The translations under genes were made by a program, and so were the position numbers. Source: Hypoxylon rubiginosum (Eukaryota; Ascomycota; Sordariomycetes; Xylariales; Hypoxylaceae). From it: 64,000 bases of DNA. The notes beneath the pieces are model-generated. The model was not told where the DNA came from. It ran no database searches and saw nothing but the letters and a program-made list of their open reading frames with translations. Shown here in pieces: positions 26,418 to 63,463 of this stretch; positions within the stretch are counted from its first letter, which is position 1; every line of letters starts with the position of its first letter. The stretch is from positions 992,001 through 1,056,000 of the forward strand of contig CADCXA010000027.1 of assembly GCA_902806565.1 (NCBI GenBank), given 5' to 3'.

Positions 26418-27128
26418 ATGTTCGAGTACCGAATCAAGACAACTCCCACAGGTCGGCAGCAGTTCGTGCGTTCTCAGTCCTTCTCTCATCATCACGATCA
26501 CGATCATCACCGCCATCACTACCGAACACGATGTTTCGATAACTGCGCTGGCATCTCGCTCGACCAGTGGAACACCTTGTGCGGCCAGAACAAGACTCTC
26601 ATCGGGGACAATGACGCCTTGACCCGCGAGAACCAGACGCTGAAGAGCGACCTTCAAGCCACATCTCAAGAAAACGGCCGGCTCATCGCGTACAACCAGC
26701 AGATGATCGACGAGATCGAAGTACTGAGACGGTCTCACTCTCACGACAGCGATACCACCGAGAGATTTCGTCGGCGGGTGGCAGCTCTTAAAACGGAGGT
26801 AGACAACAAGGATCGAGAAATCCGCCGCATCGAGAAAGAGAACGACACCTTTGCGACGCGAGTCCGCGTCCTAACGCAGACCGTCTCAGACCACGCCAGG
26901 AGGATCGCAGATATGACCACAGATCTTATCAACTGGGAGAAGAGATCCGACAAATTTGAGGGCTGGTACAACGACATGAAGAGCAAGTTCGAAAATGTGA
27001 GGCGCTTAGTGGCGTCTCAAACGAGAGAACTGGACGACAAGAATATTCTTATCGAGGAACAGCGCCGCATGATTCGTCGGCTCGAGACTGCACTCCCTCC
27101 TCCTCGTCGACGGTATTCTTGTGTTTAG
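26418..27128 (+). CDS. coiled-coil protein, function unknown
   Basis: Single exon of 236 residues beginning MFEYRIKTT, with CATATG context at the start. A His-rich patch (SHHHDHDHHRHHYR) lies at residues 23-36, a Cys-containing segment (RCFDNCAG) follows, and from about residue 50 to 225 the protein is an almost continuous coiled coil with charged heptads (LTRENQTLKSDLQ, VDNKDREIRRIEKEND, SQTRELDDKNILIEEQ). It ends RRRYSCV. No catalytic domain or membrane helix. I do not recognise a family. It resembles the other coiled-coil protein at 44992 only in architecture, as far as I can see by eye. Confidence 0.7.
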   Translation: MFEYRIKTTPTGRQQFVRSQSFSHHHDHDHHRHHYRTRCFDNCAGISLDQWNTLCGQNKTLIGDNDALTRENQTLKSDLQATSQENGRLIAYNQQMIDEIEVLRRSHSHDSDTTERFRRRVAALKTEVDNKDREIRRIEKENDTFATRVRVLTQTVSDHARRIADMTTDLINWEKRSDKFEGWYNDMKSKFENVRRLVASQTRELDDKNILIEEQRRMIRRLETALPPPRRRYSCV

Positions 27129-29936: not shown

Positions 29937-30137
29937 TTTTAATAAATATAATATTATATAAACTTATAATATAACTTTTCTTTTTTTAATTAAAATTAAA
30001 TAAATTTTATAAAATTTATAATATTTTAAATTATATTATTAGTTATTATTTTTATAATTATTTATTTATAATATTTAATTAATTTATATTATTAATAAAA
30101 CTTATAAAAAAACATTTAAATTATTTAAAATTATTTA

Positions 30138-30938
30138 TTTAATTTTAATTAAATATATTTAAAAATTATTATATTTATAAAACTTATAAAAGAACGGTTT
30201 AATTTTTTAATTATAATATAAATAAATTTAATTAAGCTTAATTAAACGTGTTTAAAAAATATATAAACTTATAAAAAAATATTTTAATATATTTTAATTA
30301 TTATTTTTAAATATATTTAATTAAATTTAATTAAATATATTTAAAAAATATATAAATATATAAAATAAAATTTTAATATATTTAAAATATTTTTAAATAA
30401 ATTTAACTAAACTTAATTAAATGTATTTATAAAATAAATAACTAAATTTTTAGTTATTTAATTAGTTTATAACTTTTATATTATATTTATAAGTTTTATA
30501 AAAAAATATTAATTTTTTAATTAACTTTAAATATAATTAATTAAATTTAATTAAATATAATTAAAAAATAAATAATTTTTATTTATTTAATTTTTAACTA
30601 TTTAATTAACTTATTATTTTTTTAATTATATTTATAAGTTTTATAAAAAGGTATTAATTTTTTAATTAACTTTAAATATAATTAATTAAATTTAATTAAT
30701 TATAATTAAAGAATAAATAAGTAACTATTATTTTTATTATTTAATTAATTTAGATTTTTTTTTATTACGTTTATAAAGTTTATAAAAAAACATTTAAATT
30801 TTAATTTTAATTTAAATATATTTAATTAAACTTAGTTAAATATATTTAAAAAATAAGTAGCTTATAACCGTTAAAGTTTTTAAAAATAATAAATATATTT
30901 AATAAAACTTAGTTAATTATATTTAAAAAATAAGCAGT
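30138..30938. repeat. degenerate tandem array, about 8 copies of an ATTTAATTAAA core
   Basis: A core like TTTAATTAAACTTAATTAAA followed by TATATTTAAAAAAT recurs at about 30138, 30225, 30310, 30396, 30530, 30675, 30814 and 30892. Spacing is about 80-145 bp. The intervening TTATAAGTTTTATAAAAA segment is also shared by several units. Confidence 0.75.
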
Positions 30939-31121
30939 TTATAATTAGTTAAACTTTTAAAAATAAAATATATTAATTTAAAAATAAATTATTTATATTA
31001 ATTTAAACTTTTAATTATAAATGTTTTTTAAGTATTTTATATTATATTAATAATAAAACATTAATTTATATTTATATTTATATATAATAAAAAATTAAAT
31101 TTATTTTTTTATTTTTATATA

Positions 31122-31146
31122 TTTTTTTTTTTTTTTTTTTTTTTTT
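31122..31146. repeat. poly-T run
   Basis: About 25 consecutive T within the AT-rich block; length may be inexact in the assembly. Confidence 0.9.
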
Positions 31147-34100
31147 ATTCTTTTATTTTTATTATATTTAGATTTTTTTTTTTATTTTTACTTAATTATA
31201 ACTTAACTTTTAACACTTATAATAAACATTTATTTAATTTATTAAACTATATAATAAAGTAAGTATTTTTTAATATTAAAACCTAGTTATAAAAATTTTT
31301 TAAATTTAAAATATATAAATATTTTTTTTTATTTTTAATGTTATAACTATCTTTTATTTTAACGATTAATATACCGTTACTATAACTTTTTTATTTATTG
31401 TAATTTATTTTTTTAAAAGTATATATATATTTATTAGATTTATTTAAAAATTAAGTTTATTAAATAATTTTATATTTTAAATTAATAAAAAATAATTATT
31501 TATTAATAATATTAAACTAAAAATAATAATAATAATAATAATAAAACTAACTTTAAATAAATAAAATTAACTTGTTAATTTATATTTTTTAAAGTTATAA
31601 AATTATTTTTTTATTATTTAGTTCCGGATTTTTTCTTACCTTTTTTATATAAATCTTTTATAAAAATCGCTTTTAATTATTATTTTTTAAATTAAGGTTT
31701 TAATAACTATTTATTAAATAATATAAATAGTTATTTTATAAAGTTATAATATTTTAAAATTTTTACTAATAATAAATGTTCCTAGTTATATATATAAGTT
31801 TTTTATAATATTAATAATTTTTTTAATAAACCTTTTAACGTTTTTCTTATAAAAAACCACTTTACGTTATAATTTTCTTTTTTTTTTTTAGTTAATAAAA
31901 ACCTATTATTATAAAAATAAAACTTATTTTTTAATTTTTTTTAAAACTTTAATAAGTTATATTAAAAATAATTTTATTAAAAAAATAATTCTTATAAATT
32001 AACATTATTCTTAATTATATTTATAAGTAAAAAAGCTTTTATTTTTATAAATTTATTAAATAATTTACCTTTTTTATTTATAATTTTTAAAAAAAATAGC
32101 TTTTTATTATTATTAATATTAATTAGTTTAATTATAATAAATAATAATTTAAGTTTTTTATTAAAACTTATATTAACATTTATTTTATTAAAGTTTAATA
32201 AAATATTTAACTTTTTTTTAAAGCTTAAAAATATTAAGTGTAAAACTAAATAAAAACCAATAACATTAAATATATTAAAATAAAAGTTAAAATAAAATAT
32301 ATTTATATTTAATTTTAGTTATTATATTTTAATAATATTTAATTATTTTTAATAAAATTTAAAAGGAATTAATAATATGTTAATATATAATTTAGATATT
32401 TAAATAATTTTAATATATATTTATTTTTTTAAAACTTTTTATTTTATTTATTTTTTATATAATAAAACATATTATAATAAAGCGTGTTAAATATATTTTA
32501 AAGATATTAACCTAAGAAAAAATAGATTTTATATATACTTCTTTTTATTTATAAGTTTTTTTATTTTTTATTTAAATTTTTTATTTATATTTTTTAGTTT
32601 TAATTAATATTAAATATTTTTTTTAGTTATTATTATTTTATTTACTTTTAATATATAAATATTATTATATTTTAATATATAATTAAGTTTTTTTAAAATT
32701 TATTATTATTTAAAACCAGCTTATTATAACTATATATTATTTATTTCTTTTTTATTTTTATATAATAAATATATATAAATTTATTAAAATTTACATTAAA
32801 TATAAGAAAATTTATACGTTATTTAAAATAACTTTTAATTTTTATATAAAAAATTTTTATTATATTTATTATTTATATTATATTTTAAAATAATATTAAC
32901 TATTAAATAAAATTAATTTAAATATATTTTATTAATTTAAATATTTTTAAAAGTTTAAAATTAAAAAAAATAAAATAACTAAATAATAATAATTTAAGCT
33001 TTAAAATTTTTTATAATTATTTTAAACCTTAAACTAATAACTTTTAAAATAAAATTATTTATTATATTTTTTACATTTTTATTATAAAAAATAATTAAAC
33101 TTTATTAAATATTATAAAACTTAGTTATATAATAATAAACCTTTATAAATAAATATTTATAATATTAATATTATAAATAAATAATATAATTTTTATAACA
33201 CGTTTTATTAGTTTAATAAACATTTTAAAAAAAAAATAAAAAAAAATAAAACCTTTATATTTTATTATAAAAATAAAAATATATAACTAATAGAAATTTA
33301 TAAACTTTTTAAGTTTTTATAATTATTATTAATTAACTTTAACTTAAAAACTTAAAAATTTTAAAAAAACATTTAATAGTTTAACTTCGTTTTTTTTTTT
33401 ATATTTATTTTATATAAACTTATTAATTATAATATTAATAGTTTAAATCTTAGTTATTTTTAAATTTAAAAGATTTTATATTATATAATTAGTTTTTTAG
33501 AAATAATATAAAATAAACGGTTTAAATATATTTAATTATATTTTTATAATTTATAATTAGTTATTTAATATTAATTTATTATTAATAATAATAATTTAAA
33601 TTTAAATATTTTAATATAACTTTTTAAAAAGATTTATATAAATAATCTATATATTAAAAAATATATTATAACTTAAAAACAAATATAAAAAGCTATAAAT
33701 AATTTAAAAAACTTAAATATAAATAATTTTATAATTTAATTTATATTAAAATTTAACTTAAATATAATTTTTAAAAAAAATATAAATTAATAATATAAAA
33801 ACTTTTTAAAAACTAAAAATATTATTAATATTATTTTAAACGTTATAAAAAAAAATTAATAATAAAAAAAAATTATTTTAACCAAATAAATTATTATAAA
33901 AAAAATATCGTTTTTTTATATATATATTCTTATAAACCATTTAATATATATACCGTTTATTTATATATTAATATAGCTATATAAAAAAACTAATTATAAT
34001 TTAAATATATAATTTTATAATAAAAATTATAAAAAAAAAAACTTATTTTTATAATAATATTTTTAATATTATTTATATAATTATAAATAAAAAGTATTAA

Positions 34101-37100
34101 TTTTATTTATATTTAATTAACTTTTTTAATAATATTTAATTAATATTTAAATTATTATAAAATAAATTATTTTAAAATAATTAAAATATAAATAAAATAA
34201 CTTATAAAAGGTTTTTTAAAATAATTTTTATAATATTATTTTAATTAAAAATATTAATTTAATTAATATTAACTATAGTATATATTTACCGTTTTTATTT
34301 ATTAACGGTAAAAAATTTATATTTTATTATTATTAAAACTTAATAGTTATTATTTATTATTTAAATTAACTAATTTTTTTTATTATTTTTATTATTAATT
34401 TAAACTAATTAAAAATAAAAAATAAGCTTTTTTTAAATTAAATTATAAGTAATTAATTTAATATTAATATTTATATTTTTAATTAAAAATAAAAAACATT
34501 TTTAAATAATATTATAAAAAAAAACTATTTTAATAAATATTATAATATAATTTAAATAATTAAATATTAAAAAAAAAAACTTATTTTATATATATTATTT
34601 AATTTTTTTATTATTATTAAATTATAATTAATTTATAGAACTTGTAAATATTAACCGTGTTATATAAATTAAAATTTTAAGAATTAATATTAATTTAAAT
34701 AACGTTTTATAGTAAATAGTATTATTTAATATAATATATAAACTTTATAACGTGGTAAATTTAAAATTATTTTATATAATTAAAAATTATTATTTTAAGA
34801 ATTTTTTAAAATTATTTTACTTTAAAATTATAATTAAATTAAATAAATATTTAATATATAAATAAAAATTATATACTAAGATCCTAAACTATTTAAAACT
34901 AGTAAAATAAAATAATAATTAAATAATATTATATAATTTTTTTTTAACTAAAAATACCAGGCGTATATTAATATTAAAATTTATATTATTATAAAAACAA
35001 TTAAATATATTTATAAATATATTTATAAAAATAATAATTAAATTATAACCTATTTATATTAAAAGAAAATACTATTATAATAAAATTAAAATTAAAATTA
35101 ACCTCGTGATAAAATTAATAAATATTTATATAGCCGTTTTATTAAATTATATAAATTAATATATCGTTTTTTAAAATTTTTAATTTATAATATATATTTA
35201 TTTATTTAACCCTTAGTTATTTATTTAAAAAAAAAAAAAAATAAAATACTATATTAAAAATAACTTTAAATTAATAATAAAAGCTTTAAAATAAAATTAT
35301 ATAATTTTTATAATATGGTTTAAATATAATAAGGTTTATAAAAATAATTAAAATATTTTATATTAAAACTTTTTATATTTATTTTAATAATATATAAAAA
35401 AGAAATAAATAAAATATAAACGAAAAATAATAAAGAAGTTTAATTAAATATATTTTATTTATTTAAAAGTTAATAAAAGATTTTATTTATAAATACTTTT
35501 TATTTTAATTTTTAAAATTAAAAGTTAACTTAATTTAATAAAATATAATAATGTTTAATATTTAATATTTTAAGATATTTATTAAGTTTAAGGCTTTTTA
35601 AAAAATAATAACTATTAGAAGAATTTCTTTAAAAAAACGTAAATATTTTTAATTAATAGTTAATTAAAAGCTGTTTTTATATATATTTTATAAAAAAACG
35701 ACATTTAAAATCTAATTTATATTTAAAATAAATTTTAAAAGTTTATATATAATAATTTAATATAAACATTTAATAAAATATAAAACTTATTTAATTTAAT
35801 TAAAATTATCTACTTAAATTATAATTTATATTTAATTAAAATAATTATTATAAACTTAAAAAACTAAAGCAAAATAAGTTTTTTTTTATTTTAATTTAAT
35901 TAAAAAAAGGTTTATATTAATCACTTATTTAAAAAAAAATTAAATTATAATTATAACGTTAAAACAAGCTTATATAATAAAACGTTTTTAATATTAAATA
36001 ATAATTAATATATTATATATAATATTATTATAATAATTATTAAATAAACTTTTTCTTTTATATATTTTTATTTATAAAACCTAGTTAAAACTAAGAAAAC
36101 CTTTTTATATTTAATATTTTATTATTATTATTAATTAAAAAAAAAAATTATATTATATATAGTTTTATTTAATATTATAACGTTTTTATTATCTAATGAA
36201 AAAACCACTTATTTATAGTTTAAAATTTTTATTACTTTAAATAATAATTTAATATATAATATTTAAAAAAAATTAATAAAAACGAATCTTTTTTAATAAA
36301 TATTATTAATTATTTAAAATAAAGTTATTATATAATATAAATATATATTTAAAATAATTTATAAAATATTATATAATATATAAAAAAATTAATTTTTATT
36401 TAATAAAATACTTATTTTATTTAAAAAAAACTTTATATAAATTTTATTTATAATTAAAAAAGAATTAAAACTATAAATTATTAATATTTATTTATAAAAT
36501 TTATTTTTATAGTTTAAACTTTAAAAACTATATTTAATAAAAAATATAAAGGTTTAATAAAATAATATAAAAAATATAAAGTTTTTATAATAATTTTAAA
36601 TAATTTTTTATAACTTTAAAACTAATAAATTAATATTATTACTTAATATAATAAAAGTATTTAATAATATTAAAAACTTTTATAATTATATTTATTTAAA
36701 AGAAATTTTAAATAATATATTATATAATTTAAATACCTTTATTTTTAAGTTTATTTTATTTATATATAACGTATTTATATAGGAAATTAATAATAATTTA
36801 TTATTTAACATTTTTAAGAAAAAATAAAAATATTTTTTAATAAATAAATTTATTAATATAAATAACTAATAGGTTAAAAAAACGCTAATTAAAATAATTT
36901 AAGTTTTATAGCTAAAAGAAATATTATTAATTAAATTAAAATTAAAAATTAATTTCTTTATTATAATATTATATAATTTAGATTTTAATTAAAACTTTTA
37001 TAATAATATTTAAATAATTATAACTTAATTTAATAAATATAATATAAAAGTTAAAATTCTTAACAAGTTATTTAATAAAATGGAATATGTTTTATTAAAA

Positions 37101-39559
37101 ATTAAATTAATTTAAAATAATAAGAACTAACTATTTATATAATTTAAATAATAATTCTTAATATTAATTTACTTTATTATAATTATAAATAAATTATAAA
37201 AATAATTTTTTAATATAATTAATATTAATTAAAAGATTTTTATATTTATATATAAGTAATTTTATATAATTATATTAAAAATTAAGTTTATTTAAAAATT
37301 AAAAGTCCTAAAAACACTAGGAGTAAAATTTAATAAATTATTAAATATTATATATTTTAAAGTTTTATAAGAATTAATAAATAATTAAGAAAAAATATTA
37401 TAAATAATATTATATTTAATATATATATAAAACGTTTTTAATTAATTATTTAACTTATTTTTATTTTTTAAAATAAAAAATCTTATTATATTTTAATTAT
37501 TTTACTTTTTTTATTATATTAAATAATTAAAATAATAAATTATAAATTATTTTAATTATTTTAAATAAGTGAATATTAATTAGTTTTTACTCTGTTATAA
37601 GTTTTATATTTTTTTTAATTATTAATAATAAAAAGTTACGTTAAAAAAAAATTAAAATTAATATAAAAACGTTAATTAATACACTGTTTATTTTAACGTG
37701 TTTATTAGTAACTATTAAAAAAATTAACTATTATTACTTAAGTTTATTAGTATTTATATATTATATATTAAATTAATAAAAGTATTTATTTTTAATATTA
37801 TTATAATAATAATTAATATATATATTATTAAAATAATTAAATAAAATAATATAATATTAAAATTTATTATTATTTATTTTATAGTTAGTGTAACTTTATT
37901 TTAAAGGTAAAATAATATTATATATTTATATATAAATAACTAATAATAATTAAAATTTTTAAATTAACTAAAAAAAATTAATATAAATTTATTTTTATAA
38001 TTAATAATTAGTATTTTATTTAACTTAATTTTTTTATAATAATAAACTTAATTTTTATATTATATATTTAATAAAAAAATTTATTTAATAATAAGTTATT
38101 AAATTGTTAATAAAATACTTATTTAAAAAAATAATAAGGTTTAATATATATATAAATTATTAAATATTAAAACTATAATATTACTTATTTTTATTTTTTT
38201 AATTTTAATTAAAACTTATTATATATATTTAACTAAATTTTTATTATTTTTTAATATAAAATAATTATTATTTTCACTAATATAATAAAAAATTTTAAGT
38301 GTATAAAATAAAACTAAAAAATAATTTAATTTATTTTAATTTAAAACTAATATTTATTTTTAATTAAGTTTAAAAAAATTAAAACAATTTATATTATAAA
38401 ATAATAAGTTTAATAAATAAAAACTAGTATATTAATTATTATTATTTTAACTTATAAAATTATAAGGTTATTTTTTTAATTTAATAATAATAATTATTAT
38501 AAATATCGTTTTTATAATATAAAAAAATTAAAATAAAATTAAAAGGTTTTTTAAAATTAGTAAAATCCTTTAAAAAACATTTTTTATAAGCTAAAAAAAA
38601 ATCTTATAAACTATGTAAACTTAAATAATATTAATTAAAAATAATTATAAAAATTTATAAAATTTAAAAGTTTAAATTAAATAATTATTTAAATTAAACA
38701 AATAAAAAAAATATTAAATAATTTAAAATTAATATTATATAAATCACGTTTTAATAACAGTTTAAAAAAATATATAGTAATTAAATATACGTTATATATT
38801 AAAAGTAAACTAGTTTAAAATATATATAAAGTAATAAAAAAAATAAAAATTTTAAATAAGTTATAATTATAAAATTAATTAACGTTAATTTAAATAAATA
38901 AAAATTATTTAATTAAACGCTTTTAATTTTATATTATAAAGTTATAATATAAAAAAAGGTTTTATATTTTAAAAATATAAAAAAATATTAACTTGGAATT
39001 TTTATTAAGTAATATATAAAATAATAAACTAATTTATTAAATTATTTTTTTATTATTTATATATATATATTTTATAAAATATTATCCTTATAAAAACACT
39101 TACTTAAAAAATATTATAAATTATATATATAAAAAAGTAATATATAAAAAAAAATCTAATTTTTTTAATTATAATATATTAAAAAAAACCTAATTTTTTA
39201 TAAATAAAACATCGAAAAAAATTAAATTTTTTAATAAATATAATTATTATAAATACGCTTAAAAATAACTTTATAATTAATTTTAAAATTAATATTAATA
39301 AGGGATTTAATATTAATAAAAACTATATAAAAAATAATTAAAATAAAATAATTTTTATAATAATTTAAACTTTAATTATTACTATTTATTAAATTAAATA
39401 TAAATATAAATAACTTTAAAATAAAATTAAAATTAACAAATAAATAAGATAATATAAGTTTAATTTTAATATTTAAGTATAAAGAATTAAACTTGGTTTT
39501 TTTTTTTTAGTTAAGTTAAAAGTTATTATTTAAATTATTAAAAAAGAAAAAGTTAAAAC

Positions 39560-39561
<2 letters not shown>

Positions 39562-39606
<45 letters not shown>

Positions 39607-39621
39607 TTATTATTATTATTA
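39562..39621. repeat. ATT trinucleotide microsatellite
   Basis: About 20 nearly perfect ATT units within the AT-rich block, one interruption in the middle. Confidence 0.9.
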
Positions 39622-42600
39622 CTAGTAAGTTTAAATTATTTAATATATGTTAAAAATATTAATTTTTTATAATAATATTTTTAAAAAAAATATTTAAAAT
39701 TATTATTATTATTAGGTTTTATTTATTTAATATATATTAAATAAATTAAGCGTTTATTTAGATATTTAATATTATTTTTTTTTTTTAACTTTATTTATAT
39801 TTTTTTTTTTAGTTTTGCTTATGTTTTTTTTTTTAATTTTGTTTATATCTTATAAGATTTTATTAATATTATATTTTTAATTAACTTTTTTAATATTAAT
39901 AACTTTTATTTTAAAATTAAAAAGTTGTTTTATTATTATTATTTATTATATAAATTATTTATTATAAAAGCTTTTATATTTAAAAAAAATAATAGAATAT
40001 TTTTAGTGGGAAGTATTATTATTAAATATTTTAATTATTTTCCTGGTAAATAAAATTTAAGTGAAATAAATAAATAAAAATTTAATTAAAATATAAAAAA
40101 TTAAATGGAAAAAATAATTATAAAATAATATATATATTTTAATATTTATATTATAATATTTAATTAATAGTTAAAAAATATATAATATTAAATAAAGTTT
40201 ATTTTTTTATTTAAGGTTTAGTTTTAAATAAATAATAATATAATTTTTATTTTAAATATAATAAAAGTTTTAATAAAAAAATATATAGTTAAAAAAGAAA
40301 ATATAAATAACGTTTAATAAATTTTTTATAAAATATATATATATTTAATTAATTAATAACTAAAAATTTATAATTTTAAATATAATATAATTGTTTTTTA
40401 ATTTTATTAATTATAATATAAAAGTGTAATAATTATAGTTAAAATTAAATTTAAAATTAATATAATTAAATAAGTTATTAATATATATATTTTTTTATTA
40501 TTTAAATATATTTTTATAAAAAAAAGACCAGTATTTTTAAAAAAAAATTACTAGATATAATATATTAATTATAATAAAAATAATTAATATAAATATATAT
40601 ATATAATATTTAAAATTAATTATAATATTTAAATATATAATTTATATTTATATAGCTTTTATAAAAAATATAAAAATAATAAATTTTAATATTAATTAAA
40701 TTATTTTAAGATATTAGTAAGTAAAAAATAGTTTAATTAATAAATAAAAAAAAATATAGTTTTTATATATTTTTAATATTATTTTAAATATTTTTAATAA
40801 TAATTATATAAATTTTATAAAACAGTAAATAATAAAGTTTATTATTATTAATAATATATAAAATAATTAATATATATAATAAATTATACTTAAAATAAAA
40901 AATATAAATAACTTTTTAAATTTAATTAAATATATTGTTATTATTATTAAAAAATATAATAACCGTGAATTTTTTTTTTAAATTTATTTTATATCTTATA
41001 TTAATAAAAAATATATTAATAGAAAATAAATATTAAAATAAAAAATAAAAAATTAATTATATATTATATAACTTACTTATATATATAAACAAATAATAAA
41101 TTATTAATATTTTAGGTTTTAAAATAACTTATTACTTAAATATTTAAATAATTTATATAAATAAATCCTTATAATTTTATTTATATTATAATAAATATAA
41201 CTTTTTATTATTTATATATATTTAAATTTATATATATTACGTTTATATATTTAAAAATAAATAATATTAATAAATTATATTATTTAATTTATAAATTGTT
41301 TTTATATAATTTATATATATAATTATAATATAAGCTTAATATATATTATTTAAAATACTTAAAAATAAAATTATTATTTAGTTTTAATTTTTTAAATTAT
41401 TTTAATATAATTTTTAGTATTAATTATAAAATAATTTATATTATTTATATTATTATTACTAGTAATTATTAATATTTAACAATAAAAAAAAACATTAATA
41501 TATTATAAATATATAAAAATAAATATAATTTTTATATTTTAAAAACCTTTAAAAGTAAATTATTTATTATATTTAATTATAAGATTTTATTATTTAATGA
41601 TTATTAATAAATTTAATTAATAAATAATATTAAATATTTTTTTATTATAATATTATAATAATTATTTAAGTTTATTAATAAAATAATATTAATAAATAAT
41701 TATGTTTTTTATTTAAACTTTAATTAATAAGTAATATTTATTATTTTACTTTTATTATAAAAAAAAATAATAAGCTTAAAATATAAATATAATAAATTAA
41801 TTATAAGCGAGTTAATTTTAAATAAATTAATTTTAAATAAACTAACTTTAAATAAATTAACTTTAAATAATAAAAAAGTATTTTTATAGGTTTTAATTAT
41901 TAAAATTATAATAAATTTAAAAAAATTAATAAATAATTATAACTTTTTAATTAAGATTTGTTATTTTATAAAAGCGTTAATTAAAATTAAAATAACTTAT
42001 ATTATATTAAAAATATATTTAATTTAATTTAATAATTATTATATGTAAAATTTTATAATTTTATTTTTAAATATAAATAACTTTTTTAATAATAATAAAA
42101 ATTAAATAATAATTTAAAATAATATTTATTATTTATTTAATTATAATTATATAGTTATAATATTAAAAAAAAATAAAGATAAGGATAATAAATTAAATAA
42201 ATTATATATATTATAAATTTATATATTAAATTTATTAAAATTTTTTATTAATAAAAACCTATTATATTTAAATTTTTATTATAATATTAAATATTATTTT
42301 ATTTTAAAAACACCTTTTTAATATACACTTATATATTTTACTTAAAGTTTAATATATAATAAAATAACTTTGTTACTTAAAAATAAAAAAGCGATAAAAA
42401 ATTAAAAATTTAATTTATTATTAATAAAATTTTAAAAAAATAAACACTATAAATAAAAACCATTAAAAACCTTAATTAAAATATATAAATTATAAATAAA
42501 AATATTAAAAATAAATAATTAAAAGAAAGGAAAAAAATAAAGTAAAAATTAATAATTAAAAAACCTGGAGTTAAAAGGCTTAAAATTAAAAAGTTAATAA

Positions 42601-43392: not shown

Positions 43393-44991
43393 GCACTTGG
43401 CACTTATGGCAGCTTGTTTATGCATGTATGCCTACCAATCTTAGCTTAGTGCGGATCGCAGCCCCGCGGTTTTTACACTTGTTTTGACGGATCAGATCAT
43501 GTGCTTGGAAGCCTGTCCCCGAAGTAATTTTTCTCCGCCTGGACGCTCTGGACGCTGCACAGTACCGGGTACAGTACCTACCCCCTAGACCCCTTTTCAG
43601 CCCTGTTAGGCGACACCACCAACACCTCCAGCAAAAGACCAACAATCGGGAGACTTTCAAACGTCATGCACAGAACGCATCAAGCATACTCTGCAACCCT
43701 CGATGCAGGCTGTATGTGAGTCATCGTGCGGTCTCCGTTATTTGTTATTTGTGTTCCTATCTTTGCATATCGAGCATAGGGTCGATTGGCTTCCCGATGT
43801 CATTGATTCGACACCTGCAGAGGCCATCGTCGCTTTTGACTGGCTAGGCATTTCTGTGGGCGCTCTTCCATCTGCACGCCCGCGCGAGTGTAGTCCTACT
43901 CTACGCAGTTGCGCAGAACCGCAGCCGGAAATCAAGATCGCGCGTTGAGAGGTCCCTTTTCGTCAATTCTTTGCGTGCGCCATCTCTGACCTACCTACCT
44001 AGGTACATATAACCCGTTGGCGACCCAGATGGCGCCTCCTGGCGAACCGTTTTGGGGGCCGAAAAAGTAGGCGGCCATGGCGTCCGGTACGAATTTTCGG
44101 TGTAAAGCTGGCAGGTCGAACATCCAGCTCACTCCAAAGGGGGGAAGCACAAATGCCGTCTAACAGTGCTAGAAACTTCCAACTCGCGTCTTTTCCTGCT
44201 CTCTCTTCTCGTGTGCTCTTCCCACACCATCCTGTTGATTGCGCGTTACGCGTTGCGCGATGCGCGGTGGAGTAGGCGGTCAGCAAGGCGTTCCCCCTTT
44301 TTTTTCCTTAATTGACGGCTAGTGTGGGAGGAAACGAGTTGTTTCCGCCACGGCGTACTCCCAAGTTCGGCTCCCCCATAAACCAATTTTTTTTCCCGCT
44401 TGGTAAGACGACCCTTGAGTCTATTGAGGCTCATCGGCCGGGAAGGATGCTACAGACCAGGGACCCGCTGCCTAAAATCAGGACTCCATGTGAGAGGCAA
44501 CCCGGTCTACTTAGTACAGATACGTGCATATATCTGCCGTATCCAGAATTTGCTGTTAGTCTCGTGGTGTAAGTGGTTATACATACCTAGTTATACATAC
44601 CTAGGTACACATAACTACCTCACGCCGAACACTCAAGGCAGCAACTGGCCCATTCACGAATCATAGCTCCTAAATCACTTTGTATAAAAGTTGCATCTTT
44701 CCTCTTCTTAACATTCTACTCGTTTCTATCTGCAAGACATTTATTACCACTGCTCGATTTGTCTCACTTTCACAAAAGGTGATCTACCGACGTTTTTATA
44801 CTTGTAACTAGAAGACCATCGTCATCAACTCGGTGACTCAACATCGCTTTCCAACCTACAGCCTCACCCCCCTGCTACGCCATCGACTGCTACTATCCGT
44901 TAACCGTGCCCTTGCTGCGTTGCCTTGTTGTGAATCGTCACACAGGCATCTCCCGGTGACCGTTGCCTTAAGGGTTACGTTCACGACGATA
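43393..44991. other. intergenic between the AT-rich block and the second coiled-coil gene
   Basis: No gene supported. Two TACCTAGGTA motifs occur (about 43997 and 44596). The pyrimidine-rich and CTCATC-rich stretch near 44690-44830 looks like promoter and leader of the next gene. Confidence 0.55.
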
Positions 44992-45909
44992 ATGTCAGAT
45001 AGGCGAGTCACGTTCCAGATCTCCACGCCAGCAAAGAAGTCATCGAAAGGTCACCGCAGCCGCGAACTAGGGCACGATTCAGGAGTGGGTTCATCATCTA
45101 GTGGGCAGGCTAGTTTAGGCGGAAGACCTGACCGTAGGTTCACAGCCGAGGATCTCGACAGCCAACTATACAGTGTCAGTGCCCTTCAGGAGGCACTTGG
45201 TCAAGCAAACCGGAAAGTCGACCTTCTCCAAAGGCAGTGTTCCGACATGGATGACGATTTGACCAAAGCCCACAAAGCCGCTCGGGATACGGAGAGGCTT
45301 TACCGCGACGAATGCGAGCGTACTGATCGACTAAACAAACTGGTCAAGGAACTTGAGGATCAAATAATCACCAAGGATTATCAGCTCAAGAACTTAGAGC
45401 AAACAGTAGCCGCCCAGGACGATCGGATCAAGGACCTTACGGATGCTTTCAACGAAATGAGAGACGATCGGGATGAATATCGGCACAAGTATTACAACTT
45501 ACCAGACCCGGTCGTCGACACCACCATGAGAGGTGGCTCTGGCGAGCCTTCGTCTCGATTGCACCGTTCAAGAAGCAGGCATGAACAAGACCATAGAGAG
45601 TCGAAGGGTGCCAGCAGGAAGCACGGAGAGGAGAAGGCCGGATCGTCACGGCACCATCGCCGCAGATCAAGCATCAGCATAAACCCAGGCGCAGGCAACA
45701 AGAAACCATACATCGAACGAATGCCCGGCGACCCCCCCAGGGCGTCGGCAAGGTATTCGGGCAACTACACCACTACGGCTATAGACGTATCGCCAGTTTC
45801 CAATACAGATCCCCGATACTCGGCCGTTCCACGAATCTCACCGACATCAACCTCAGGAAACTATGTACCGTATCCCTTACATGAACCCCGCGGCCACCGT
45901 CGTAGCTAG
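44992..45909 (+). CDS. coiled-coil protein with basic, Ser/Arg/His-rich tail
   Basis: The frame is open from 44833, but the first ATG is at 44992, giving 305 residues in one exon. Residues 1-55 are Ser/Gly-rich and basic. Residues about 65-180 form a coiled coil with regular heptads (LYSVSALQEALGQANRKVD, LVKELEDQIITKDYQLKN, LEQTVAAQDDRIKDLTDAF). The C-terminal third is rich in Arg, Ser and His (RLHRSRSRHEQDHRE, RHHRRRSSIS) and ends in RRS, which suggests nucleic-acid or acidic-surface contacts. No known domain, signal peptide or membrane helix. Function unknown; it lies just right of the AT-rich block and mirrors the coiled-coil gene on its left in size, single-exon structure and orientation. 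Confidence 0.75.
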   Translation: MSDRRVTFQISTPAKKSSKGHRSRELGHDSGVGSSSSGQASLGGRPDRRFTAEDLDSQLYSVSALQEALGQANRKVDLLQRQCSDMDDDLTKAHKAARDTERLYRDECERTDRLNKLVKELEDQIITKDYQLKNLEQTVAAQDDRIKDLTDAFNEMRDDRDEYRHKYYNLPDPVVDTTMRGGSGEPSSRLHRSRSRHEQDHRESKGASRKHGEEKAGSSRHHRRRSSISINPGAGNKKPYIERMPGDPPRASARYSGNYTTTAIDVSPVSNTDPRYSAVPRISPTSTSGNYVPYPLHEPRGHRRS

Positions 45910-53009: not shown

Positions 53010-53951
53010 ATGCATTGTAAAATGACATCCCTCGGCTCCTTCGATTGTTTCAACGACCTCCCCAAAGAACTCCGCATCCTGATATGGGAATACCACTTCG
53101 AGAGCGCTCGGCTTCACGTGGTCCATCCCGCGCCGGAAAGTGAGAACCGGAACCCGAAGAGGGAGGTCCTGATATTTCAGTGCACCGTCCTAGATTCCGC
53201 CACCAACCTCGTCATCCTGGACGGCCGCCCTCCCTCCATCCTCATCAACCACGAGGCCTACTCGGTAGCCGCCTCGCGCCGCCGCGTGTGGACTCCCGTC
53301 AGGTTCGGCAAGGATCTAGCCGAGTCCGTCACGTCGGGCCGCGCTGCTCGCGTGCCTCTCCAATGGCCCGTCCCTAGCGTGTCGGGGCTGCTGACCGCCG
53401 AGCGCAACGCGAGGCCCATCCACCCCGTCTACGTCGACTTCGACCGCGACATGCTCTACCTGTGCGTCGCCCACGCCGAGCAGGCCTTCTGGTCGCTCCG
53501 CTCCGTGCCCTGGCGGGACCGGCTCCGGAAGCTTGCCGTCCTCGTCCCGCAGAGCGAGTTCGACCGGGCCATCCCCTTCGGCCCTACCGACCCCATCCGG
53601 GAGGTGCTCGACTCCACCAGCGACCTCGAGGAGCTGCTCGTCGTGCTTGTCCCGCAGCCCGGCGTCGTCGGCGGCGGCGGCGCTCCCGCCTCCCCCGCCG
53701 CCATGGCCGGCCTCTCGCGAGACGAGTTCGGCTTCGTCCCGTACGTCGACTACCTGCAGGAAGCCGGCCTCGCGAGCAACCACATCCTGTACGCCCGAAC
53801 CGCCATGTCGTTCAAGGAGGCCCTGGGAGGCCTGCGGAGGAAGATCAAGCTTAGGAGGGTGGTTGACGTGGATTACCTCACGTCTGCCTTCGGCTACTAC
53901 CGGCGAAGAAGTCTAAGCCCATCGGACTTGAATGGAGGCCCATCTAGCTAG
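53010..53951 (+). CDS. 2EXR-domain protein
   Basis: Single exon of 313 residues. The 2EXR signature FDCFNDLPKELRILIWEYHF lies at residues 11-30, followed by VVHPAPE and, after a variable region, ILINHEAYSVAASRR and VYVDFDRDMLYLC, which is the usual order in this fungal family. A Gly/Ala/Pro insert (VVGGGGAPASPAAMAG) occurs near residue 220. The second in-frame ATG (53022) is an alternative start. The domain is expanded in ascomycetes and its function is unknown. Coding GC is much higher than in the flanks. Confidence 0.85.
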   Translation: MHCKMTSLGSFDCFNDLPKELRILIWEYHFESARLHVVHPAPESENRNPKREVLIFQCTVLDSATNLVILDGRPPSILINHEAYSVAASRRRVWTPVRFGKDLAESVTSGRAARVPLQWPVPSVSGLLTAERNARPIHPVYVDFDRDMLYLCVAHAEQAFWSLRSVPWRDRLRKLAVLVPQSEFDRAIPFGPTDPIREVLDSTSDLEELLVVLVPQPGVVGGGGAPASPAAMAGLSRDEFGFVPYVDYLQEAGLASNHILYARTAMSFKEALGGLRRKIKLRRVVDVDYLTSAFGYYRRRSLSPSDLNGGPSS

Positions 53952-58575: not shown

Positions 58576-60033
58576 ATGAATCTAGAGAGTACGCCAGCGA
58601 TGGAGGCTCCTCCGGGAGAAACATCTAATCTTGTCGGCCCTTATACAGTAGACCCTATTCGAATCGCCGTGTCAGCCATTGGCATCGGGATCGCTGTTAT
58701 ATCTGTTTCTATCCGAATTTATATGCGGGTAGTGTTGAAAAGGTTCAACCATGAGGACTGTGAGTATTATCATCAATTCGAAGCACATGGCTAACTATTT
58801 CCGAGGGGTTCTTCTGTTTGCGATTGTATGTCCATCCAACATTGGGTTCGACGAATACTTTGGCACTTCGTTTCAAGATCTGACATCATATAGGCAGCAT
58901 TCGGGGTGTTCGTAGCCATGGAAATTATTGCTTCTGTATACGGCGAAGGCCAACATTTAGTAAGAAAACATTTTCAGTTTCGATCCTGTCTCGGTCTCGT
59001 ACGCAACGACCTGCTTCCAGTCAGGCATTTCGACGCTAAAGACCCGTTTACTAATTCAGATGGAAGTGGAATGTCTCCTTAGCCAGTCTTGAAAAGGCAC
59101 TTTACGTGAGTGCCTCAAAATATTTTACTATAATGCGATTTTTATATCCAGAGCCGCTGCTGATAGCAAACTTGCGCTATAGTACGGAAACATTGCGGAA
59201 ATATTCATCAGCGTAACAATGTTCCCCATCAAATATGTTTTGCTTTACCAAATCAAGTCGATATTCTTTCAGCATGATCGCCGAGGTCTTTTTGGTCGAA
59301 TAATTATCATCTTGATCTGGGTAAACCTACTCCTGTACTCCTCCGTCGCTTTGGCTCTGATCTTTTCCTGCAATCCTCGGGAGAAATTATGGCATCCAGA
59401 TATCGAGGGTTATTGTATCGATAATGTGGCTTGCATGTCTACAAGCAATGCCCTTAACATCGCTTCTGACCTTTCGATACTGATAATTCCCATGCTTGGC
59501 ATCGCACAGTTGCAGATGCCCCTTAAGAAGAAGCTTCTGGCCGGATCGGTGTTCGCAGTGGGTATTTTGTACGGGCGTTATCCATCCATATCGCTTATAC
59601 GTCGCGAGTCTGACCAATATTAGTGCCACAGCTGCCGGTATTGTTCGATTATATTACGGTGTTCAGCTGCAGGACAGTGAAGATTATACTTGGGACGTCA
59701 TGCCCGTGGGTAACTGGACGTAAGTCGGATATCACTATACAAGGTGAACCAACTGTACAATATAACTAACCGCGTCGTCTAATTTATAGTGCCGTGGAGT
59801 TCGCTATGGGCTTTATCGTTGCCGGCGCACCGTATCTCCCTCGCTTCATCGAAAATGTATTTGGGCGGCGGAAGTCGGTACCCACTAACCCGCCCTACAA
59901 TATATCATCATACAGAATGGAGAGGCTAAGGTCTTCGGATATACCCGACGTTAACTCAGGTAAACGGCATTTAGAGAGTAAGAATAAGGTGATTGCGCCT
60001 TGGGAGGATTCGACTCCAGGAGCGGTCTTGTAA
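58576..60033 (+). CDS. fungal rhodopsin-like seven-helix integral membrane protein
   Basis: I join seven exons: 58576-58759, 58806-58825, 58894-58959, 59067-59105, 59183-59561, 59632-59719 and 59790-60033. All phases agree, giving 339 residues. The second exon is only 20 nt. Family landmarks are IYMRVVLKRFNHED before the second helix, YGEGQHLWNVSLASLEKALY across exons 3 and 4, a DxxDLSI-like SDLSILIIPML helix, and the VRLYYGVQL plus WTAVEFAMGFIVAGAPYLP helices near the end. Hydrophobic segments number about seven. Such proteins (often annotated 'rhodopsin domain' or PTH11-like) are numerous in ascomycetes and most have no known ligand; they lack the retinal Lys of true opsins. The 59562-59631 intron (CTGACC branch, CACAG acceptor) is the least certain junction, and without it the frame breaks. 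Confidence 0.78.
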
Positions 60034-61302
60034 TAAGGGGTGGGTGGAACGGCCACGCTAAACAGATCGGCACGAGGAACCAACACCTCTTCAGATATTT
60101 TGTAGCTAGCTGAATAATCCTAGAAATTCACTTTACTTATGAATCTCGGACTACCGAGATAATAGACGCTGAATTTGCTCTGCCACTCATCGTGTTTGCC
60201 CACTTTGGCAACGCCTATTCTTCTGGATGTCGGGTTGCATCCATGAAACTCAGTTCGTATGATTCATATAACTTATTCATATTCCAGGTCAAGGATGCCG
60301 GCTTATGATCAAGGTGTATTTTAATACCCCGTTCGCTTTCATGGGTACTTATTAATGTTCACAAAGTTGGATAGTTCGTCCTTCTACCCCTTTTCATCAT
60401 CACTAGCGCGAGTGTCTTCATAAAACTACCTGGGTATACTAGTAGGATCCTTGAACAGATTCGGACAACTGGGGAGAGCTGATAGCTCAACTATTTTACG
60501 GAATTGAATGCGACGATACTATAATGCCGTCAAGGATATGACCTTGGCCTATGGATGGGAGGTTAGGCATGTTAACACGGATAGGGGGGCTGAGACAAGA
60601 GCACGAAGTATTTCTTTTCAAAGCAAACTTATGACCCTCAACGGTTATGGCAAGAACTTATAGCGCAATAATTCCGTTGCTTTCACACCTTGGCTTGCTT
60701 CGCGACAGGTGCAATGGAGAAAAACTAGATAACAAATGCGACAGGCTGCATGCCGTCAGAGTCAAGCACCGCTGCTCGATTGTCACTACTCTAATCAGAC
60801 CAGTTCTCTCATATGCCACTCCTCCTGCGGTAACACCGTTTCTAGGTCTCCGATTATCCTGTTCTAAATTCCAAATCCCAGTCCCATCCCAATCCCAATC
60901 CCAATCCCAATCCCAATCCCAATCCCAATCCCATCCCCAACCAGAACCAGCTCCAACCACCACCACCATCACCATCACAAGCCCCGAGCAGTGAGTCCCA
61001 CCTGAATGAGATACAATCGGGGTTCCATGCTACTAATCGAGTTATGTATTGCTGACATTTAACCAGACAAAGGTTAGTGGGATCTATCTGCTTCGTCTCC
61101 TTACCACAAACAGATCTTCGTTACACATCAGTTGAGGAGAAGCGTCATATATTGGAGAGCTCAGCTAACATTTCTCGACGAAGGTTCTCCTATAGCTAGC
61201 ATTTGTTATTACTCCGGTGAAGATCGAGCGCCCATACACCAGCACTGCCGTCGCCCCCAAGGCCGTAAGCAATACACTAATTTCAGCAAATAGAACACAA
61301 TA
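60034..61302. other. region upstream of the microexon gene, partly exon-like
   Basis: No complete gene resolved. An ATG-started frame at 60647-60994 (115 residues) contains a QS repeat encoded by CCCAAT units and ends at a potential CAGTGAGT donor. Between 61120 and 61270 two open, protein-like stretches occur (SVEEKRHILESSANI and PVKIERPYTSTAVAPKA). They may be 5' exons of the microexon gene, but the intron needed just before its ATG would be only about 34 nt. Confidence 0.4.
60888..60932. repeat. CCCAAT hexanucleotide repeat
   Basis: Seven units, same hexamer as in tbf1. In the plus-strand frame it encodes QS dipeptides. Confidence 0.92.
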
Positions 61303-62251
61303 ATGGCCGGCCTCGCGCCTCAGGTACGCACCAGATCTCAGTCCTTACAACCCTATCCATTCGCGCGAACACCAGCGATATCCCCTCGACCGAGAATAAC
61401 ACTATGTGGCTAATTTGATATGCCAAATAGCCCAAGTACGGCGAGAGGGATGTAAGTAGACCAAGCTTCTTCGCTTATACTCATACATACACTAACATAT
61501 ACCTCCAGGATGGATCTCTCGAAGTGAGTGGCACTTCATGTCGGTATCATGGTCATGCCCGCTAACTTTTACGAAAAAGTTCATCCAGTACCGGATAGAC
61601 GTGAGCCATAACAATGTCTTGTAATCCCTAGATATGACGCAGCTATACTAACATTTACATAGGTGGCAATGGGAGAACTGCGCGCAAGTCTTCATTGTTC
61701 AGCTTATATATTAGTAAAATACTAATACCAGCATTTTAGGAGCGCATAGAAGTTAGAATACCTCTGCCCAACTGGACGACTACACTGATAATTTGAACCT
61801 CCATCCAGAAACAAGAAAAGTTGCGAGACGTAAGTAGAACGTTATCTTCCACGTCGAAAGTCGCAACTAATATGGATTGAAGGAACTTGCCGCTCGTCTC
61901 ATCGTATAATATACCCAAATCGACTAGTGATATTAGCTTAGGCTAACCTATCTTATTTCCCTACCGAAGGAGTACAAGAAGGAGCGCGAAGTAAGATGGT
62001 ATCTCCTCGATGGATGCTACCGCAGTTGCTTATAGTTTATAGCAACGCAAGAGCCAGCCGACCATGGATGACAAGGTTGAGGTGAGTATTCCAGCCTAAA
62101 TATTTGTGTATTGCTTGCTAATATCTTTGTAGGCTCTTTTGCGGGAACTTGAAGTAAGCCTATTAATAATCCGTAGCCACTCGACGAAACTAATAGCAAC
62201 TCGTTACAGAAGAAGGCCAAGGAGGAGGTTGAGGAGGAAGAGGACGCATAG
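61303..62251 (+). CDS. 12-microexon gene for a 91-residue charged coiled-coil protein
   Basis: Exons: 61303-61323, 61431-61451, 61509-61523, 61580-61600, 61663-61683, 61740-61751, 61809-61829, 61883-61903, 61970-61990, 62043-62081, 62133-62153, 62210-62251. Coding totals 276 nt in 949 bp; the 11 introns are 51-107 nt, all phase 0. Exon lengths are 21, 21, 15, 21, 21, 12, 21, 21, 21, 39, 21 and 42 nt. Ten introns have GT donors (mostly GTAAGT, GTGAGT or similar) and one has the canonical rare donor GCAAGT. Nearly all have a CTAAC/CTAAT branch point close to the AG. The joined product starts MAGLAPQ, contains FIQYRID, KQEKLRD, ELAARLI, EYKKERE and ALLRELE (each one exon) and ends in EEVEEEEDA. 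It reads as one continuous amphipathic charged helix, so the exons are unlikely to be chance. No signal peptide or known domain. I do not recognise the family. Confidence 0.8.
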
Positions 62252-62353
62252 GTGCCTCTTAAGGCACCTACTCAGGAACGGACCAAGGTATGTAAAGTAT
62301 TTTTCGGGTCATATGTAATACTGTTATTAATTATCTAGGAAGACAACGGCTAA
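62252..62353 (+). other. possible 3' coding continuation past the microexon gene stop
   Basis: Directly after the TAG the same frame stays open for 12 codons (VPLKAPTQERTK), meets a GTATGT donor at 62288, and a TCTAG acceptor at 62338 leads in phase 0 to EDNG and TAA. The 51-nt intron matches its neighbours. Either the stop is real and this is a spliced 3' UTR, or the TAG is a recent nonsense change. Confidence 0.45.
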
Positions 62354-62587
62354 CTCTCTTGTTATAGAAACCCATTATTAAATACTTCAATTATTTTTAG
62401 TACTTTTATCGTGTTGGCATGTGCCGGCCCTAAAAATTCTTTTTATCCTGTTCATGCTGCCACTGGCGACTGTAAAATATGCTCATGCTGCACGTTTCTC
62501 AACTTCATGGCCCTCTCCGTCAACTCCTCCGTAGCTGTGTAACTGAAAGTAATGATCGTATCTCCCCCACACCCTCCTTTTCCATTC

Positions 62588-63463
62588 TCAATCTTTCGCA
62601 ATCTCCAGCTTCTCTGCCTCCATAGCCATGGCCCGAGCCTTAGGATCTTCGCTGTTCTTGTTGTCTTCTTGACGTTGCCAGAAATTGGGCGCCACTTCGG
62701 ATCGATCGATGAAGACAAGATTGGAATATTGTAACTCGGTGTCATTATGTCTGTCCTTCAGCAGCAGTATCCATCTCTCTACCTTGTCGAGGTGATACTT
62801 TTGCCTCAACCGTAGGCAATCGCGCACGCAACTCTCAATGTCAAGCTCAATTTGAGATTCCAGTTCTCTAATTAGAGTATCTAAACGTGTGACACGGCGT
62901 ACCATGCCCTGATGGTGTCCCTGTCGAAAAGTTGCTGTGCTCAATCGGTATTTCTTTGTGTCACGGTTGGATCTGAGGCGATGTATGTCGGCAAGACGGT
63001 CTCTAAGGCTCAGGCGGTCGAAGAAGACAAAGGTTCTCAGTGAGCGCGGGTCCCCATTTGCGCAAAGACCAGAGTTATGCAACCCGAAAATATCGATGAC
63101 GATATCGGACCCGGAAGGAGATGTGAAAAACCACCGCCTCTCTACCGGCTTGCACCTCGTGCGACGCTCCAACGCGATCTGGCGGCTCTCGTGGCTGACG
63201 TAGAAAAGCTGGGGCACCTGAGAGAGGACGCAGTATCCCATATGTATGAACGTTGGATATCCGTCCATGCTGGGGAATACCACGCCCCGAATCCCGGCAG
63301 GCGGTAGATCGACCATGTAGGCCTCGTCTAGGGCGTACTCCCATATCTGAATCCGAAGCTCAGCTGGAAGCATTCTGAACAATGTGAACGACATGGCGCG
63401 AGGTCTGATCGGCAAGTTGGTAATAAGTGTGTTGCTGGTGTTTTCTATATCTAACGAGGCCAT
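62588..63463 (-). CDS. 2EXR-domain protein
   Basis: Single exon of 291 residues on the minus strand. The 2EXR signature FTLFRMLPAELRIQIWEYAL is at residues 26-45, followed by VPQLFYVSHESRQIALERR, the second conserved block of the family, and a strand-like DIVIDIFGL. The C-terminal half is helical and basic with a possible coiled coil (residues 190-240) and ends KLEIAKD. It is the second 2EXR gene in the window but is only distantly similar to the one at 53010. Function unknown for the family. It is convergent with the microexon gene, about 235 bp apart. Confidence 0.85.
   Translation of the reverse strand: MASLDIENTSNTLITNLPIRPRAMSFTLFRMLPAELRIQIWEYALDEAYMVDLPPAGIRGVVFPSMDGYPTFIHMGYCVLSQVPQLFYVSHESRQIALERRTRCKPVERRWFFTSPSGSDIVIDIFGLHNSGLCANGDPRSLRTFVFFDRLSLRDRLADIHRLRSNRDTKKYRLSTATFRQGHHQGMVRRVTRLDTLIRELESQIELDIESCVRDCLRLRQKYHLDKVERWILLLKDRHNDTELQYSNLVFIDRSEVAPNFWQRQEDNKNSEDPKARAMAMEAEKLEIAKD

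Follow-up and report, generated by a model that had tools for sequence, protein, structure and literature searches.

Can a fungal gene consist of microexons throughout, and how might such a gene have come about? In most genomes, genes with many exons of similar size and a single phase are reportedly rare (PMC9168663). The initial annotation of a 64,000-nucleotide stretch of the Hypoxylon rubiginosum genome (contig CADCXA010000027.1, positions 992,001 to 1,056,000; hereafter the window) described a gene of this kind, a 91-codon frame split into 12 in-phase microexons. We analyzed this locus computationally. Judged from its sequence, the locus is best read as an orphan gene made of microexons, spliced by intron definition and encoding a small, charged, helical protein. 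We think it likely that the gene is real and unannotated, that about eleven short phase-0 introns cut its 91-codon frame and are spliced by intron definition, and that the layout goes back to an old duplication of cassettes.

Exon-intron anatomy of the locus

We found that the chain occupies positions 61303-62251 on the + strand and contains 12 exons of 12-42 nt and 11 introns of 51-107 nt, every intron being in phase 0. The first intron is 107 nt long and the others are 51-66 nt. Exons account for 276 of the 949 nt (29%), and the joined frame has 91 codons. The coordinates, lengths, phases and exon content given in the initial annotation were all borne out when we read the sequence. Its count of eight exons of exactly 21 nt holds less firmly: there are seven or eight, and eight is not certain, exon 4 being either 21 or 12 nt long.

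The frame begins with exon 1 (61303..61323; 21 nt; MAGLAPQ; posterior 0.997-1.0), whose start codon lies in CACAATAATGG context. (Here and below, features are on the + strand, and posteriors come from 4000 sampled gene models in each of three settings.) Intron 1 (61324..61430; donor score 4.8, acceptor plus branch point 4.0) leads to exon 2 (61431..61451; 21 nt; PKYGERD; 0.95-0.97). Intron 2 (61452..61508; 57 nt), which is stop-free if retained, is followed by exon 3 (61509..61523; 15 nt; DGSLE; 0.99-1.0). Intron 3 (61524..61579; 56 nt) has an in-frame alternative acceptor at 61588, and exon 4 is either 21 nt (FIQYRID; 61580..61600; 0.26) or 12 nt (YRID; 61589-61600; 0.74). After intron 4 (61601..61662; 62 nt) comes exon 5 (61663..61683; 21 nt; VAMGELR; 0.975-0.995). 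Intron 5 (61684..61739; 56 nt) is of the GC-AG type (GCAAGT) and precedes exon 6 (61740..61751; 12 nt; ERIE; 0.92-0.98).

Intron 6 (61752..61808; 57 nt), with the donor GTTAGA, separates exon 6 from exon 7 (61809..61829; 21 nt; KQEKLRD; 0.99), and intron 7 (61830..61882; 53 nt) lies between exon 7 and exon 8 (61883..61903; 21 nt; ELAARLI). Exon 8 is uncertain, with a posterior of 0.72-0.73, or 0.49 if introns of up to 140 nt are allowed. Intron 8 (61904..61969; 66 nt; donor GTATAA) is followed by exon 9 (61970..61990; 21 nt; EYKKERE; 0.65-0.78), which has a rival in a 54-nt exon at 61937-61990 (0.18-0.28). Intron 9 (61991..62042; 52 nt) leads to exon 10, which is either 39 nt long (QRKSQPTMDDKVE; 62043..62081; 0.78) or 24 nt long, beginning at 62058 (0.18). 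Intron 10 (62082..62132; 51 nt), exon 11 (62133..62153; 21 nt; ALLRELE; 0.99-1.0) and intron 11 (62154..62209; 56 nt), the retention of which shifts the frame without a stop, complete the interior of the chain. Exon 12 (62210..62251; 42 nt; 0.94-0.95) encodes KKAKEEVEEEEDA and ends with the stop codon TAG. A weak donor-like site within exon 12, noted by eye, would give an alternative C-terminus (KKAKEE-ERTK-EDNG).

The splice signals described earlier as good donors and branch points are good in large part. Eight of the 11 donors score 4.8-6.8, and a loose regular expression finds a branch-point site in 10 of the 11 introns. The remaining three donors, those of introns 5, 6 and 8, are weak, and intron 9 has no branch-point match.

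Introns may also lie outside the frame. A possible 5'UTR intron extends over 60991..61066 (donor GTGAGT, score 2.5), and a possible 3'UTR intron begins at 62288 with the donor GTATGT and would end at an acceptor at 62338 (score -0.1) or 62367 (1.6). We also considered a longer gene with outer exons. The gene finder described below, free in its choice of start, picked 61303-62251, and we read the flanking introns as UTR introns. A CCCAAT-type hexamer microsatellite lies at 60870-60940, approximately 370 nt upstream of the start codon, and the sequence is of low complexity from there to the good donor at 60991. About 60 nt at 60546-60608, unlike the rest of 60000-61303, have two copies elsewhere in the genome (C25 and C53) at 83-84% identity. 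A perfect 8-bp inverted repeat with a 4-nt loop (AGGTGCCT) at 62250-62269 overlaps and then follows the stop codon.

Gene-finder tests and coding signal

We found that the chain was recovered unprompted. Our gene finder used generic splice matrices for filamentous ascomycetes and a codon table derived from long ORFs, and treated all phases and exon sizes as equal. Given the final 6 kb of the window (+ strand), it returned the chain with both ends included; only the acceptor of exon 4 differed, giving the 12-nt form. Chains in phase 0 only made up 99.4-99.7% of the sampled models, and in no setting did the posterior of exons 1, 2, 3, 5, 6, 7, 11 and 12 fall below 0.91. A self-retrained version of the finder kept the locus with the same ends, as 10 exons and with a score of 12.9. 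Self-training merged adjacent genes and drifted (249, 337 and 521 introns over three rounds), and the untrained matrices were used for the other tests.

The locus was an outlier when only microexons were allowed. We scanned 264 kb of the genome on both strands for chains of exons of 60 nt or less. The locus scored 18.6, compared with 3.8 for the next-best locus, and 19.4 once the window was left out of codon-table training. The 285 chains built from dinucleotide-shuffled chunks reached no more than 2.2, the 2000 shuffled versions of the region no more than 0.5, and four additional 10-kb stretches no more than 1.5. No further microexon gene was found in the 304 kb scanned, a sample of 0.6% of the genome. 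One other open-ended run scored high (L008, 13.5; shuffles reached up to 8.8); it is presumably a normal gene with an MRG domain (Eaf3-like) that was split too finely in the scan. Based on the unprompted recovery and the distance from the shuffles, we conclude that the chain is more than a chance arrangement. Together with the sampling of phase-0-only models, these results support the in-phase microexon chain as first described.

The joined exons also carry a coding signal. In the joined frame, codon usage gives a log-odds of +30.6 nats, no internal stop occurs, and the log-odds is positive in each of the 12 exons. The other two frames of the same strand scored -3.0 (2 stops) and -0.5 (5 stops). 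When blocks of the same lengths were slid along the region, none of the 106 sets was stop-free and none reached 30. The exons have 55% GC and the introns 40%. One antisense frame of the joined exons is likewise stop-free (log-odds +17.5), which we put down to codon symmetry. A gene on the antisense strand was considered and rejected: the longest stop-free stretch there is 84 codons, the drifted model, run on both strands, gave no prediction on the minus strand over the locus, and the microexon scan, which also covered both strands, listed none there. We likewise rejected a non-coding RNA; no Rfam family reached its gathering score within 60000-63000. From its sequence, the locus is very probably a genuine protein-coding gene.

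Exon lengths, exon ends and the origin of the layout

We found that the exon lengths are more regular than random placement would give. When 11 boundaries were placed randomly on codon borders, with no exon under 4 codons, at least eight equal exons arose in about 0.01% of 100,000 trials (~1 in 10,000) and at least seven in about 0.2%. The exon ends are also alike. The residues preceding the 11 junctions are LAPQ, GERD, GSLE, YRID, GELR, ERIE, KLRD, ARLI, KERE, DKVE and RELE, which share the motif [ER]-[LIVR]-[DE]|; the irregular exons 3, 6 and 10 also follow it, loosely. Over three residues at the 11 boundaries, the similarity had p=0.00025 against random placement and p=0.002 against permuted exon lengths. 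Under both nulls, p was 0.001-0.002 over two residues and 0.005-0.017 over four. The last residue is D or E in 8/11 exons (p 0.0016), and position -2 is I, L, V or M in 7/11 (p 0.0012). These tests of equal length and exon ends were chosen post hoc, which weakens their p-values, and they used exons 4 and 10 as the initial annotation had drawn them.

A slide of all boundaries by one residue retained much of the score, and over four residues a slide of +1 scored higher (64 vs 32), as expected of a heptad repeat. Donor preference does not seem to be the full explanation of the motif, since just 17 of the 191 control donors predicted (frame unknown) had GA at -3/-2; it may account for part of it. 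The shared motif indicates that the boundaries fall at equivalent points of a short amino-acid repeat. Such placement, like the equality of the exon lengths, is what both origins initially proposed, duplication of heptad-sized exons and repeated insertion of introns at equivalent sites, would predict.

Neither origin has left a recognizable copy in the nucleotide sequence. The eight 21-nt exons agreed at 165 of 588 positions (null 161.6, p 0.37), so that duplication is not visible at this level, and their amino-acid similarity was weak (p 0.05-0.07; 0.012-0.014 without exon 1). The introns (10 compared) were not clearly more alike than predicted control introns with a similar GC content (p 0.09). 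Their summed similarity did exceed that of shuffled introns (0/200 shuffles reached the real value); because real control introns were not clearly beaten, we read this excess as shared splice and branch signals. A search for copies of the introns in the genome sample gave 22 matches at E<1, compared with 106 for five shuffled sets. Among the matches listed, the region as a whole had one short match in the sample, 25 bases at 92% (E 0.014), which lay inside the glutamate-rich exon 12. In the genome as a whole, the 949-base region matched only itself at E<=0.001. These comparisons revealed no introner-like copies, which the initial annotation had proposed to look for, among the introns, in the sample or, at E<=0.001, in the genome. 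None of the 11 introns had significant terminal symmetry (self-reverse-complement, all p 0.10 or more), and none contained the 10-nt palindrome core of Hypoxylaceae sister stwintrons. With no nucleotide similarity among exons, and neither copies nor symmetry among introns, both a recent exon duplication and an introner or stwintron origin are unlikely.

An old duplication of cassettes fits the equal lengths, the single phase and the common exon-end motif best. The layout would have arisen by tandem duplication of an exon-plus-intron cassette of about one heptad, as the lengths, phase and end motif suggest, and the duplicated cassettes would later have diverged past nucleotide recognition. The main rival is parallel insertion: an ordinary gene of one or two exons, encoding a helical protein with a repeat, would have gained introns at corresponding points of that repeat. 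Intron proliferation is known in the family, with sister stwintrons described in H. rubiginosum and its relatives (PMC12403724, PMC8469720); a fungal amylase gene acquired by transfer is described as having gained introns massively and at rather regular intervals (PMC3584928); and the repeated exon-end motif would offer equivalent target sites. However, the 11 introns do not match one another clearly beyond control introns, nor the sample beyond shuffled introns, and lack the symmetry and the palindrome. Moreover, the published stwintron insertions in Xylariales are described as lying at seemingly random sites (PMC12403724), which would not yield phase 0 throughout together with seven to eight equal exons. 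We consider parallel insertion somewhat unlikely.

A second alternative is a chance splice-like chain, or an untranslated pseudogene. No homologue or annotation was found in the length range searched, and the stretch may be lineage-specific, the neighbour at 62588-63463 matching its own species only (E<=0.001). Against this stand the scan score of 18.6, with a shuffle maximum of 2.2 and a next locus at 3.8, and a per-exon coding signal that is frame-specific on the + strand and runs through 91 stop-free codons. This explanation seems to us very unlikely. A further alternative concerns function: microexons might be included alternatively, so that the coil would vary in length among the proteins made. 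Each of the ten internal exons is bounded by phase 0 on both sides and, by the arithmetic of lengths and phases, can be skipped in frame, as the initial annotation had pointed out, and exons 4 and 10 have in-frame alternative acceptors. Alternative inclusion of microexons is known in the micro-exon genes (MEGs) of schistosomes. However, where introns are short and spliced by intron definition, errors should more often take the form of retention than of skipping, and the one tested microexon of a filamentous fungus in the literature covered is a single 20-nt exon (PMC11121469). Exon skipping at this locus is possible; a diversity device built on it appears distinctly unlikely.

To return to the probable gene itself, each intron would carry a full set of splice signals (donor, branch point and acceptor), and splicing in Ascomycota is described as proceeding by intron definition (PMC12403724). 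If the introns are spliced in this way, as the anatomy also suggests, exons as short as 12-42 nt would not have to be recognized across their length. Retention puts a stop in frame for 9 of the 11 introns, and any regulation would more probably act through intron retention than through exon skipping.

Predicted product and comparison with known systems

The predicted product has 91 residues, of which 26 are acidic and 19 are K or R, and an E-rich tail. No signal peptide is evident by eye at its N-terminus. The protein would be cytosolic or nuclear, charged and mainly helical, and probably has a short coiled coil and an acidic tail. The coiled coil proposed in the initial annotation found marginal support in tests of a hydrophobic a/d register (p 0.017 for residues 23-58, 0.073 for 19-58 and 0.139 for 65-86) and none in a 3.5-residue periodicity, which was not significant (p 0.32 for residues 19-58, 0.11 for 19-85 and 0.06 for 1-91). 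Its equation of one exon with one heptad holds for length; no single heptad register runs throughout, the register being shifted by the 15-, 12- and 39-nt exons.

We found no annotated relative in the length range searched. There was none at E<=0.01 among 31 candidate proteins of comparable length, and none at E<=10 among 7988 candidates that share most words with it (~50-159 aa, splice variants included). Adding the alternative C-terminus as a query in one homology search had no effect. The initial annotation had held that the absence of any conserved homologue in related species would speak against the gene; the absence of an annotated relative of ~50-159 aa goes part of the way there. NCBIfam gave no match at E<=0.1 and PDB sequences none at E below 0.03. 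The best Pfam match, to DUF1690 (PF07956; 20.6 bits, E 0.0006), is below the gathering cut-off of 29.7, and three others were weaker still. A protein search of its own genome, of low informativeness, found nothing else. A plasmid collection yielded no match either, as one would expect of fungal DNA. Public annotation probably lacks the gene in its present form, because the protein database contains at least one H. rubiginosum protein and yet gave no match; fused or very short models outside the length limits would escape this comparison.

Several known systems resemble the locus in part. In schistosome MEGs, the exons are symmetric. As in those genes, the coding sequence here lies in very short exons (12/12 of 12-42 nt, phase 0). 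Schistosome MEGs are described as having exons of 3-81 bp, introns of up to 5 kbp and secreted products (PMC10526429). In contrast, the introns here are 51-107 nt long, the predicted product has no evident signal peptide, and there is no second copy by genome DNA search or by the microexon scan of 264 kb. Aphid bicycle and KQY genes likewise combine a divergent protein with many tiny exons. Bicycle genes are reported to have about 17 exons on average, with nearly all internal exons in phase 2, and KQY proteins to carry a secretory signal, KQY1a having 37 exons across 45.7 kb (PMC9168663, PMC7495047). Bicycle internal exons are thus also of a single phase, but that phase is 2, and here it is 0 throughout.

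Among fungi, the Hypoxylaceae sister introns and stwintrons come from the same family and are reported from H. rubiginosum too. They are similar in sequence and often terminally symmetric, whereas the 11 introns here are neither; many, not all, of the sister stwintrons are described as having terminal inverted repeats and a 10-nt palindrome (signature in PMC8469720). Xlr2 of Trichoderma virens provides a functional microexon in a filamentous ascomycete, before which, according to its authors, no functional microexons had been described in filamentous fungi (PMC11121469). That case is one 20-nt exon in a transcription factor, whereas here the whole gene would be made of microexons. The intron-invaded alpha-amylase gene of Basidiomycetes is similar in its small exons, many introns and rather regular spacing; exon sizes there are reported to vary more than intron sizes (PMC3584928). 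It encodes a conserved enzyme of bacterial origin and has introns in more than one phase, in contrast to phase 0 only at this locus. We discarded the SP7-like effectors of mycorrhizal fungi as an analogue; the description found for them mentions just a conserved intron that precedes the first repeat. Among the matches listed from openly licensed literature, judged by title and the opening of the abstract, there was no fungal gene made of microexons.

A filamentous-fungus case with near-minimal introns would show the lower bound of exon size under intron definition. Such genes would tend to escape standard prediction, and more may therefore be hidden. The locus would also give a testable case for the origin of repeated exon modules in a family in which intron gain is under study. 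In a bolder version, which we think unlikely, it would be the first fungal micro-exon gene, with serially duplicated one-heptad cassettes giving graded coil lengths by in-frame exon choice. If true, a present-day gene would let us read how a protein was put together from minimal modules, one exon at a time.

The surroundings of the locus have features of their own. Two genes of the 2EXR family (PF20150) lie at 53010-53951 (+) and 62588-63463 (-). The latter, a single-exon neighbour, is identical to an H. rubiginosum protein in nr and is the gene noted above as matching its own species only. A block of approximately 12 kb at 30001-42000 has 5-7% GC, compared with ~44-62% elsewhere in the window outside the margins of the block; our guess is a RIP-degraded repeat or a centromere-like block. 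It is flanked by two single ORFs for coiled-coil-like proteins, at 26418-27128 (+) and 44833-45909 (+), whose Pfam matches are all sub-threshold.
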